Shown: piece by piece, positions 2,857 to 7,004 of the stretch
Layout of the letters: each line of letters starts with the position of its first letter
Numbering within the stretch: position 1 is the first letter of the stretch
Assembly: GCA_030832185.1 (NCBI GenBank)
Contig: JAURJQ010000003.1
Span: forward strand, 1 to 64,000
Length of the DNA: 64,000 nt
Source of the DNA: Chitinophagales bacterium
GTDB taxonomy: Bacteria > Bacteroidota > Bacteroidia > Chitinophagales > JADJOU01
Direction: 5' to 3'
Notes under the pieces: model-generated
Database searches by the model: none
What the model was told of the DNA's origin: nothing
Seen by the model: the letters and a program-made list of their open reading frames with translations, nothing else
Translations under genes and position numbers: made by a program

Positions 2857-2880
2857 ATTTAATTCGTGAATACGTGGCTT
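2857..2880 (+). repeat. Dispersed-type repeat, copy 2, overlapping the prmC start
   Basis: Copy 2 (AATTCGTGAATACGTGGC core) differs from copy 1 at two positions and supplies the GTG at 2874, the first canonical start codon of prmC. Read in the prmC frame it encodes DLIREYVA. Confidence 0.7.
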
Positions 2881-3623
2881 CCCTATCCGATAATTTTTCC
2901 GAGTCCGAAAAACGCTTTCTTTTGCAATATATTGAAAAGGAAAATCCGACGATTCCGTTTGACGAAATAATCAATCGCTTAAATCTAGGCGAACCCATAG
3001 ATTATATACTTGGCTATACCTATTTTTATGGATTGAAAATTGAAGTCAGCAAGGATACCTTAATTCCCCGTCCAGAGACCGAAGAGCTAGTCGAATTTAT
3101 TTTGAATGAGAATCAAACTAGGTCTGGATTAAAAATACTGGATATAGGCACAGGCAGTGGTTGTATTGCCTTGGCCTTAAAATCTAAATTAGTTGATGCC
3201 GAAGCAACGGCATTAGATCTTTCTGCTGCGGCATTAGACATAGCGCATAAAAATTCTGTTTATCTTAATTTGAATATAAATTTCATCCAGCTAGATATTT
3301 TGAATGAACATCTATGGTCTAAATTAGCGAACTATGACATTATAGTCTCTAATCCACCCTATATTACGCAGGAAGAAAAGAAGGACATGACTTCTTCAGT
3401 GTTAGATTATGAGCCGCATTTAGCCTTATTCGTAGAAAATGACTCACTCATTTTTTATAAGCAAATCTTAAAATTGGCTACTTCCCACCTTCATCCATGC
3501 GGACTTGTCTATTTCGAAACTAGTCAAACCATTCAGTTGGAGGAATCCAGTGCATTTCAAATAGAAAAAAGAAAAGACTTGAGCGGAAATTGGCGGTTTT
3601 TGAAATGTATTTCAAATGACTAA
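2874..3623 (+). CDS. prmC: Peptide chain release factor N5-glutamine methyltransferase PrmC
   Basis: PrmC methylates the glutamine of the GGQ motif of release factors using S-adenosylmethionine. The substrate-binding motif NPPY (in IVSNPPYIT), the SAM loop DIGTGSGCIALAL and the family signature LIPRPETEELVE are all present. The annotated GTG start gives 249 residues, shorter than the usual 275-290. The frame stays open upstream to 2832, and the residues just before the GTG (DLIREYV) resemble the usual PrmC N-terminus. The true start may therefore be a non-canonical codon such as ATA 2850 or ATA 2841; the latter lies 5-8 bases after an AAGGAG-like sequence. No ATG, GTG or TTG exists upstream in this frame. 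Confidence 0.9.
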   Translation: MASLSDNFSESEKRFLLQYIEKENPTIPFDEIINRLNLGEPIDYILGYTYFYGLKIEVSKDTLIPRPETEELVEFILNENQTRSGLKILDIGTGSGCIALALKSKLVDAEATALDLSAAALDIAHKNSVYLNLNINFIQLDILNEHLWSKLANYDIIVSNPPYITQEEKKDMTSSVLDYEPHLALFVENDSLIFYKQILKLATSHLHPCGLVYFETSQTIQLEESSAFQIEKRKDLSGNWRFLKCISND

Positions 3624-3641
3624 TTTATTGAAGTGAAAAAG

Positions 3642-3673
3642 TTTGCGAATGACAAGAGAATTGACTAACTTTG
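3642..3673 (+). promoter_or_regulatory. Full Bacteroidota-type promoter (-33 TTTG, -7 TAACTTTG)
   Basis: TTTG at 3642-3645 and TAACTTTG at 3666-3673 are separated by 20 bases, which is the published Bacteroidota consensus TTTG-N19-21-TAnnTTTG. Transcription should start near 3679. It is the only promoter I checked here with both elements at correct spacing. It lies 224 bases from the next gene, which suggests it serves an RNA. Confidence 0.75.
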
Positions 3674-3678
3674 TAAAA

Positions 3679-3860
3679 AAGCTGGAAATTTTAGTCTATT
3701 GTGGAGGACAAGGATTGTTGCCTATCAAGGTGTTGCGACCTTGAAACAAATGTAAAGAAAGTAATAGACTCGAACGCAGAAAAGATTCAAAGCCGTAAGA
3801 TCTTGAATGGCACAATACCATATCAATTGCTAACAATTTGTACAAAGCCGCCAATCAATT
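3679..3860 (+). ncRNA. Candidate structured non-coding RNA (possibly 6S-type)
   Basis: No coding frame fits this stretch between prmC and the HAD gene, yet nested perfect helices are visible. The outer helix is AGTCTATT (3693-3700) with AATAGACT (3763-3770). The middle one is ATTGTT (3715-3720 region) with AACAAAT, one base bulged. The inner hairpin is TCAAGGT (3725-3731) with ACCTTGA (3738-3744). A purine-rich internal loop separates outer and middle helices. A second hairpin, ATTCAA/TTGAAT, sits at 3785-3808. A full promoter precedes it by a few bases. Length and the large internal loop would suit a 6S RNA, but I cannot assign a family. It could also be a long structured leader of the HAD gene. 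The 3' end is a guess; no terminator is seen. Confidence 0.5.
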
Positions 3861-3897: not shown

Positions 3898-4560
3898 ATG
3901 AAAGAAATTCAAGCAATTTTCTTCGATATGGACGGAGTTCTTATCTTCTCAGAGCCTTTTTGGCGAGAGGCGGAGTACAAAGTTTTCAAAGAGCATTTCA
4001 ATATTGCGCTCACAGAGGACGATGTGAATCAAACTACAGGTTTGAAGACAACGGAAGTAGTCACTATGCATATGAATAAATATGAATTTAGCTGTGATAT
4101 TGAGAAGATAGGTCATGAGATAGAGAAGGAAGTCGTTTGCTTGGTCTATGAGCAGGGTCAGCCCATGCCTGGGTTGAAGAATCTGACAGAATGGATAGCA
4201 GAAAAGGGGTGGAGAAAATGTTTAGTCACTTCCTCGTCTCAGTATGTATATGAGCATATAGTTAAATTTGTAGGATTGGAGACCTTTTTTGAGCGAAAAT
4301 TTACAGCCTATGATGAGGAATGGGGCAAGCCTAATCCGGCGGTATATCATTCTGCCATAGCTTTTTTAGGCCTACCTGTAGAAAATATACTAGTCATAGA
4401 AGATAGCATGAATGGCGTCAAGGCGGCCCATGCTGCCGGATTAAAAGTTCTAGGTTTACCCGAGGAGCACAATCAGGCCAATGAAATGTATAATTCTATG
4501 GTTTCTAAGTCTTTTGATTCACATTGGGAGATATTAGATTACTTAAAATCTAATTGTTAA
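3898..4560 (+). CDS. HAD-superfamily phosphatase (HxpB / beta-phosphoglucomutase-like)
   Basis: Haloacid-dehalogenase fold hydrolase of 220 residues. Motif I DMDGV carries the nucleophile and general-acid aspartates (residues 10 and 12). Motif II is the serine of TSS, motif III the lysine of KPNP, and motif IV the acidic EDSMNG. The alpha-helical cap lies between motifs I and II (subclass IA). The opening FFDMDGVLIFSEPFWREAE resembles hexitol phosphatase YniC/HxpB more than a mutase, so a sugar-phosphate phosphatase is the best guess; the substrate is unknown. It is preceded by a 274-base gap that holds the RNA candidate. Confidence 0.85.
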   Translation: MKEIQAIFFDMDGVLIFSEPFWREAEYKVFKEHFNIALTEDDVNQTTGLKTTEVVTMHMNKYEFSCDIEKIGHEIEKEVVCLVYEQGQPMPGLKNLTEWIAEKGWRKCLVTSSSQYVYEHIVKFVGLETFFERKFTAYDEEWGKPNPAVYHSAIAFLGLPVENILVIEDSMNGVKAAHAAGLKVLGLPEEHNQANEMYNSMVSKSFDSHWEILDYLKSNC

Positions 4561-4625: not shown

Positions 4626-7004
4626 ATGATTACCAGATTATTATTCTCTTTTAGTTTATTGATATTGTCTTTAAGTATACAAGCTCAGAATATAAACCTC
4701 AGCGGAACTATTACAGATGCAGAGAGTGGCGAAACCATTACAGGAGCTATAGTATCTGCGCCAGAATTGCCAGGTATCGGGACAGCAACGAATACCTACG
4801 GTTATTTTTCTCTGTCTGTACCTAAAGGAAATCAAAAAATTAAAATCAAATTTCTTGGCTATGAGGAAAGATTAGAGGATATCAACTTGACAGATAATCT
4901 TAAGAAAAATTTTAGTTTAAAGAAGAAGTCTAGGGCGATAAAACAAGTAACAGTTTCTGGTAAGAAGAAACAAAAACTAACAGATGAGGTACAGATGGGA
5001 AAAATTCAAGTAGACCTCAAGGAGTTAGATAAAATTCCTGTAATTTTAGGCGAACGCGATGTATTGAAATCTATCCAATTGCTGCCAGGAGTCATGCCTC
5101 AGCAAGAAGGTGCGTCAGGAATCATCGTGCGAGGTGGGGGTGCTGATCAGAATCTTATTTTACTAGATGAAGCTCCTGTTTATAATGCATCTCATTTATT
5201 AGGTTTCTTTTCTACCTTTAATTCTGATGCACTGAAAGACCTTACCTTATACAAAGGAAATATGCCTGCCGAATATGGGGGAAGACTTTCATCTGTTATT
5301 GATGTGAAAATGAAAGAGGGTAATAATAAAAATTATGAATTTGGTGGAGGTATTGGGCTTATAGCTTCACGATTCTATGCCGAAGGACCGATACAAAAAG
5401 ATAAAAGTTCCTTTTTTGTATCAGGAAGGCGAACCTATGCGGATGCGTTTCTCTTTTTAGCGAGTGATTCTGTGGCTAAGAAAAGTACTTTGTTTTTTTA
5501 TGATCTAAATTTAAAGACGAATTTCCAAGTTTCCAAGAAGGATCGAATTTATTTTTCAGGTTATTTCGGAAATGATCATTTCGGTTTGGCAGATGCATTC
5601 GGTATTCAATACGGAAATGTGACCGCTACCACTCGATGGAATAGAATTATAAGTGATAGAGTGTTTTCCAATACTTCTTTCATTTATAATAATTTCAATT
5701 ATCAAGTGAAAATCGGCGTCAATAATTTTGACTTAAAAGTGAATTCTATTTTAAATAATTATAGTTTGAAACAGGATTACGATTATTTCTTAAATAGTAA
5801 GAATCGAATTAAAATGGGAGGTATCTCTACATGGCACAATGTAGTTCCTGGTGATATCGAGAGCTCGGATACGCTCATCGCTAAGCGCGGATTGAATAGA
5901 AGTAATGGATGGGAGAATGCATTATATATTCAAAATGAACAGACCATCAGTTCGAAATTGAAAATCAATTACGGCATGCGATTTACATTATTTACCGTAG
6001 CAGGAGCCAATAACCTTTATTCCTTCGATGCTGCTGGTAGAGTTTTAGATACCACTAAACTAAAGGATAGACAGTTAGATCGGTCTTATTTTAACTCTGA
6101 ACCCCGTTTTTCATTAAATTACAGCCTAGGCGAAGATAAATCTATCAAATTTGCATATTCTAGAAATGTGCAGTATATCCAGCAGCTGAGTAATACGAGT
6201 GCTGGATCCCCTACAGATAGATGGGTACTAACTTCTAGAAATATTAGGCCAGGAATTTCAGATCAAGTATCTGCTGGTTATTTTTTCAACTTTGCAAATG
6301 ACATGTTTGAAGCATCCTTCGAAGGATACTATAAGCATTTGCAAAATCAAGTAGATTATAAACCTGGTACAATACTCAGAGCAAACGAAACTGTAGAAAA
6401 AGACCTAGTCTATGGTATAGGCAGAGCATACGGCGCTGAGTTTTACTTGAAAAAGAGAGTGGGTAAGTTAACTGGATGGATAAGTTATACACTCGCTAGA
6501 ACGGAGCGAAGCTTTGAGGGTATTGACGGGGGAGAATGGTTTCCATTTAGATTTGACAGAACCCATGACTTGAGTGTGGTGGCCATGTATGATTTATCTG
6601 AAAAGGTCAATATTTCTGGAGTGTTAGTTTATTATACAGGAAATGCTACTAATTATCCTACAGGAAAATATAGTGTATCTGGAGATATATCAGGTAATCC
6701 CGGGGATCCAGGTATTGTATATACCTCCTACGATAAAAGAAATAAAGATCGGTTTCCGAATTATACTAGGGTAGATTTAGCACTAAATTGGTCTCTAAAG
6801 AAGACCAGAAATTGGGAGCATGAATTGAGTTTCTCTATTTACAACGTGTTAGGAGCTAGAAATGCTTTTCAGATAGACTTTTTATATGATGCTCAGCTCA
6901 GTGAAACCTATGCTGAAAAGACTTACCTATTCGCTCAGGTACCGTCCATTACTTATAATTTCAAATTTAAACCTAGAAGACCTAGTTCATTGGAAACAAA
7001 ATAA
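4626..7004 (+). CDS. TonB-dependent outer membrane receptor with CarboxypepD_reg-like domain
   Basis: The 792-residue protein has a signal peptide (MITRLLFSFSLLILSLSIQAQ), then a carboxypeptidase-regulatory-like beta-sandwich (about 23-95) typical of Bacteroidota receptors. A plug domain follows (about 130-230, with the conserved segments GVMPQQEGASGIIVRGGGA and EYGGRLSSVIDVKMKEGN), then a 22-strand-type barrel to the C-terminus. It imports an unknown ligand using TonB-ExbBD energy. The start ATG 4626 is chosen because it gives a clean signal peptide and follows the -7 box at 4603-4610. The next gene, 6 bases downstream, is a DUF4249 lipoprotein; this pairing is common and resembles SusC/SusD without the SusD fold. 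No regulator is adjacent. Confidence 0.93.
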   Translation: MITRLLFSFSLLILSLSIQAQNINLSGTITDAESGETITGAIVSAPELPGIGTATNTYGYFSLSVPKGNQKIKIKFLGYEERLEDINLTDNLKKNFSLKKKSRAIKQVTVSGKKKQKLTDEVQMGKIQVDLKELDKIPVILGERDVLKSIQLLPGVMPQQEGASGIIVRGGGADQNLILLDEAPVYNASHLLGFFSTFNSDALKDLTLYKGNMPAEYGGRLSSVIDVKMKEGNNKNYEFGGGIGLIASRFYAEGPIQKDKSSFFVSGRRTYADAFLFLASDSVAKKSTLFFYDLNLKTNFQVSKKDRIYFSGYFGNDHFGLADAFGIQYGNVTATTRWNRIISDRVFSNTSFIYNNFNYQVKIGVNNFDLKVNSILNNYSLKQDYDYFLNSKNRIKMGGISTWHNVVPGDIESSDTLIAKRGLNRSNGWENALYIQNEQTISSKLKINYGMRFTLFTVAGANNLYSFDAAGRVLDTTKLKDRQLDRSYFNSEPRFSLNYSLGEDKSIKFAYSRNVQYIQQLSNTSAGSPTDRWVLTSRNIRPGISDQVSAGYFFNFANDMFEASFEGYYKHLQNQVDYKPGTILRANETVEKDLVYGIGRAYGAEFYLKKRVGKLTGWISYTLARTERSFEGIDGGEWFPFRFDRTHDLSVVAMYDLSEKVNISGVLVYYTGNATNYPTGKYSVSGDISGNPGDPGIVYTSYDKRNKDRFPNYTRVDLALNWSLKKTRNWEHELSFSIYNVLGARNAFQIDFLYDAQLSETYAEKTYLFAQVPSITYNFKFKPRRPSSLETK

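Follow-up and report, generated by a model that had tools for sequence, protein, structure and literature searches.

The interval that separates a prmC-like methyltransferase gene from a HAD-family phosphatase gene very probably consists of a conserved promoter followed by a fossil REPIN-like element and the debris of a RAYT-type transposase gene. Mobile DNA is the origin of its hairpins, which give no evidence of a new 6S-type regulatory RNA; the element is the fossil of a mobile repeat of known type. The interval belongs to the 64,000-nucleotide stretch of DNA analysed here (the window), with which contig C26 of a 2.2 Mb genome, G000, begins, and both genes that bound it are on the + strand (Table 1). 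The congeners retrieved with the HAD gene are metagenome-assembled Sphingobacteriales/Saprospirales bacteria, and no match was found when the HAD locus was sought in viral contigs.

Table 1. Features of the interval and its bounding genes (positions in the window)
Feature	Positions	Strand	Basis
prmC-like methyltransferase gene, 5′ neighbour of the interval	2874..3623	+	PF05175 and related families
Bacteroidota primary-sigma promoter: TTTG 3642-3645, 20-base spacer, TAACTTTG 3666-3673	3642..3673	+	consensus fit and G002 conservation
3′ end of a transposase gene of the Y1 (REP-associated) type, decayed, translating as VYCGGQGLL	3692..3720	+	27/29 bases as in the G001:C85 tail
First palindrome, REP-like unit A, GCCTATCAAGGTGTTGCGACCTTGAAACA	3720..3748	+	41.9 bits, model R1 (copy in R1 training set)
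Variable spacer between units A and B	3749..3782	.	spacer differs among dispersed copies
Second palindrome, REP-like unit B, inverted	3783..3811	-	36.6 bits, model R1 (copy in R1 training set)
Third, more decayed palindrome, TATCAATTGCTAACAATTTGTACAAAGCC	3821..3849	+	local alignment to repeat consensus, 0/2000 shuffles as good
HAD-family phosphatase gene, likely served by the promoter	3898..4560	+	PF00702/PF13419

The structured stretch is 3720-3811, where two 29-nt palindromes with the approximate form GCC-NNTCAAGGTG-TTGC-CACCTTGANNCA are inverted with respect to each other, GCC outward. On BLAST comparison of the interval with relatives, short extra matches at unrelated sites in congeners proved to be copies of this palindrome, and a covariance model, R1, was made from 21 copies. 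R1 has 6 matches in G000, 18 in G001, 6 in G002, 2 in G003, 3 in G005 and a few in more distant genomes, with 32 of the 40 searched genomes having none; it also missed the third palindrome of the window. Its matches to its own training copies are by construction, and C10 of G000 and the pair in C72 of G002, being outside the model, are independent. Twenty-two of the 33 listed matches (opposite-strand duplicates, partial matches and the weakest dropped, and the weak C10 partner added) form 11 GCC-out inverted pairs in four genomes, 62-81 bp from start to start and 91-110 bp overall.

Covariation in the stems over the 21 copies is 0.295 as against 0.031-0.078 when the partners are slid, and cells in which both sides have changed number 21 in the stems versus at most 5 with slid partners. 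Because the 21 copies are kin, a shuffle control alone is insufficient; the slid control preserves their relatedness. A compensatory GC to AT change distinguishes the C4 element of G000 from its G002 ortholog, and the intact copy at G001:C98 has a fold z of -6.81. G000 itself has three doublets, that of the window (C26, 3720-3811), C4:35702-35802 and C10:189109-189201, the last with a second unit that is nearly decayed (15.1 bits), and the C4 and C10 copies are both intergenic. The window doublet is at the orthologous position in G002, the C4 doublet in G002:C72 and the C10 doublet in G001:C98. As each G000 doublet has a counterpart at the corresponding position in a relative, the family is old, vertically inherited in G000 and decaying. 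On either side of the C4 doublet (L080:1150-1400) is a copy of a further palindrome family (CACGAGTTTGTAACTCG), of the type found 3′ of intact G001 transposase genes, and two repeat families form an array there.

Directly 5′ of unit A, and touching it, is the scrap of transposase gene. It matches the 3′ end of the transposase gene G001:C85 at 27 of 29 positions (0 of 300 shuffles as good), the match being only 29 bp long, and the in-frame reading VYCGGQGLL compares with DYCGGEGLL in the C85 gene. The initial annotation had seen no coding frame in the interval, which is not quite right given that 3694-3720 is a decayed piece of transposase reading frame. The tail is of the C85 type and not of the G003 type, for which 10 of 300 shuffles are as good. 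The 3′ end of C85 is matched twice, due to a tandem duplication, and a second gene end, C110, gives a 90% match. The duplication (L017:1967-2091) is of 96 bp and has in it the transposase 3′ end together with the palindrome that follows. Against Pfam Y1_Tnp the C85 protein scores 22.5 bits, for a cut-off of 23, and 23.5 with its neighbours in frame; it also has YIHNNP and WQ, which are given as motifs of TnpA-Y1 subclass 2.6, a subclass rich in Bacteroidetes (PMC6006769).

No Y1 transposase gene was found in G000 or G002 with Y1_Tnp. When the flanks of twelve Y1_Tnp loci were searched with R1 the sole match was weak (14.9 bits) and lay some 440 bp downstream of G001:C85, so that the flanks of the intact transposase genes of G001, G003 and G005 are, bar that match, without this palindrome; the palindromes that come after the intact transposases are different ones (GCACGAGTT..., GAAATC...). 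Elsewhere in the window a short repeat, AATTCGTGAAT(T/A)CGT(A/G)GCTT, is present twice (2743-2762 and 2861-2880), upstream of prmC and into it, and what may be a decayed palindrome, scored at 14.9 bits by R1, lies between its two copies (2766-2786).

The gap between prmC and the HAD gene is a recurrent landing place for transposase and repeat DNA. In G003 it is about 4.7 kb long, and in addition to three genes or gene fragments for Y1 transposases it has an Rhs-like piece and a Uma2-like gene (the Rhs-like and Uma2-like names come from reading of the translations); at G003:C8 (L070:2275-5990) one of the three transposase copies is truncated and one has an in-frame stop, with the Rhs-like frame between. 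In the G001 gap there are a lipoprotein-like gene and a Uma2-like gene, and shortly after the shared promoter comes a 62-bp stretch similar to what is found where the G003 transposase genes end (0 of 300 shuffles as good). At G003:C8 the prmC stop codon is immediately followed by 27 bp that resemble the first part of the HAD gene (L070:2095-2121, 6776-6802). The two genes may therefore have been immediate neighbours in the past, until insertions split or duplicated the HAD gene start.

REPINs are believed to owe their mobility to Y1 transposases that act on hairpins of single-stranded DNA (PMC6006769). The insertion debris here comprises the last codons of a Y1 (RAYT-type) gene, the inverted REP-like doublet and the third, decayed palindrome. 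As single-stranded DNA each palindrome forms a short hairpin, and the inverted pair can form one long hairpin as well. A Y1 transposase would once have recognised such hairpins where the DNA was single-stranded, and would have copied them or moved them between genes, and by analogy with REPINs the doublet was probably copied into the prmC-HAD gap by an enzyme of this sort. G000 no longer has the transposase, and the element is decaying where it lies.

Upstream of this debris the promoter has the TTTG at about -33 and TAnnTTTG at about -7 of the Bacteroides consensus (PMC7366714), as is characteristic of Bacteroidota primary-sigma promoters, and transcription is expected to start near 3679. The complete -33/-7 promoter with a 20-base spacer that the initial annotation had described is present as sequence and is conserved in G002. 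Its added statement that no other -7 box it checked has a -33 partner is almost right: it holds for the + strand, where just one of the 50 TAnnTTTG boxes in the window, that at 3666-3673, has a TTTG 19-22 bases upstream, and it fails overall, for one of the 44 boxes on the - strand also has such a partner (27384/27361). With the looser TTG in place of TTTG there are five such sites in the window on both strands. By our own estimate from base composition about two TTTG/TAnnTTTG pairs are expected by chance, and the promoter pattern alone is therefore weak evidence. Conservation is the better evidence, as over 3635-3680 G002 is identical at 44 of 46 bases and both differences are at the nn of TAnnTTTG. 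In G001 the TAnnTTTG box, TAGATTTG, is kept at this position, but the -33 TTTG has become TTTA; behind prmC in G003 the promoter sequence was not seen. Derivation of the promoter from the upstream region of a transposase was also considered; for the C85 type it was rejected (266 of 300 shuffles as good), and for the G003 type it is weak (5 of 300), the match being mostly the common -7 consensus.

Since no terminator-like site is present between 3679 and the start of the HAD gene, the promoter is proposed to read through the element into that gene, where the hairpins would probably be a passenger in a 5′ leader of about 220 nt on the HAD mRNA. The earlier suggestion of a long structured leader was thus a fair guess for the transcript, but the structure itself is a dispersed palindromic repeat. 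A more far-reaching version, that an undescribed GCC-headed family of Bacteroidota REPINs was mobilised by a Bacteroidota-specific Y1 subclass and that its remains are now a functional 5′ leader of the phosphatase mRNA, seems unlikely. Quite unlikely, too, is co-option of the element as a cis-regulator of the HAD phosphatase, for instance in mRNA stabilisation or tuning of translation. The conserved promoter and the lack of a terminator-like site ahead of the HAD gene are in keeping with such a role, as is the retention in G002 of all 6 inner pairs of unit B, but unit A has lost a pair there without compensation, and the identity of the element to G002, at 82-90%, is not higher than that of its flanks, at 89-91%. 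Moreover, the HAD orthologs of G001 and G003 are not preceded by the element, and the element is therefore not required for retention of the gene.

An independent small RNA, for example a divergent 6S RNA, is very improbable. It had been suggested by the good promoter and the short noncoding interval, and by three perfect helices, reported as nested, of 8 (3693-3700/3763-3770), 7 (3725-3731/3738-3744) and 6 pairs (3785-3790/3803-3808). All three helices exist and the 7-pair hairpin is inside the 8-pair helix, but the 6-pair hairpin is outside it. Folding of the whole of 3679-3860 (182 nt) gives an ordinary z of -1.17, as against an unusual -2.84 for the inner 3720-3811 alone. G002 is the sole true ortholog of the whole interval among the genomes compared, so that the test of the helices at the locus compares two sequences; in it 2 of the 8 outer pairs are broken and neither is compensated. 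At the G001 and G003 loci the element is absent. A perfect helix of at least 8 pairs occurs in 20% of dinucleotide shuffles, and with this, the ordinary fold of the whole and the uncompensated breaks in G002, the 8-pair helix is best seen as chance.

The covariance searches that had been proposed, with 6S-Flavo and other Rfam models, also give no support. At gathering and permissive thresholds no Rfam family was found at the interval, the matches being to a tRNA elsewhere in the window and, at the interval, chance ones to animal RNAs; the 6S and 6S-Flavo models found nothing in G000. Over the class 6S-Flavo gave a score in 5 of 149 genomes and in none above cut-off; a divergent 6S RNA might thus escape such a search, and the absence of a match is of limited weight. 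A closing helix with a large internal loop, kept by compensatory changes as in 6S RNA, is not what the broken outer pairs reveal, and no terminator-like site precedes the HAD gene. The idea of an independent regulatory RNA is not supported, its structured part being the dispersed palindromic repeat. That the hairpins are chance helices of AT-rich intergenic DNA is less credible still, for in spite of the ordinary z of the whole interval and the frequency of 8-pair helices in shuffles, the palindromes form inverted pairs at eleven sites spread over four genomes and covary, which refutes it for 3720-3811 and leaves it the best view of the 8-pair helix only.

With a fossil REPIN-like element as the source of the hairpins, a false candidate for a regulatory RNA is removed. 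The pitfall is a general one, in that inverted palindrome doublets behind a promoter mimic structured noncoding RNA, even to the extent of covariation over copies. A small GCC-headed palindrome family is also added to the poorly described hairpins that accompany Bacteroidota Y1 transposases.

The comparison with Bacteroidota 6S RNA (6S-Flavo, RF01685; Bacteroides thetaiotaomicron 6S, PMC7366714) extends to a short noncoding interval behind a good promoter, but the interval here has no model match, no conserved closing helix and no syntenic conservation. With TnpA-Y1 subclass 2.6, whose genes in Bacteroidetes are flanked by atypical hairpins that are without a GT[AG]G foot and have copies elsewhere in the genome (PMC6006769), the likeness is in the Bacteroidota setting and in the YIHNNP and WQ of the G001:C85 transposase. 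C85, likened to it by these motifs, differs in having SHLH for the HUH-type motif NH[LIV]H, and the intact C85 gene is flanked by a palindrome other than that of the window. The resemblance to REPINs, or BIMEs (Bertels and Rainey 2011, PMC3116915), is in an inverted pair of palindromes set close together around a short spacer, with a total length of about 90-110 bp and foldable as one long hairpin (11 pairs, that at 3720-3811 included), and in dispersed, multiple copies outside genes. In contrast to REPINs, copy number is modest, with three pairs in G000, no transposase is left in that genome, and the units start with GCC in place of the 5′-foot tetranucleotide GTAG/GGAG (or CGTC). Because of the GCC foot and the lack of GTAG the element is called REPIN-like and not a canonical REPIN.
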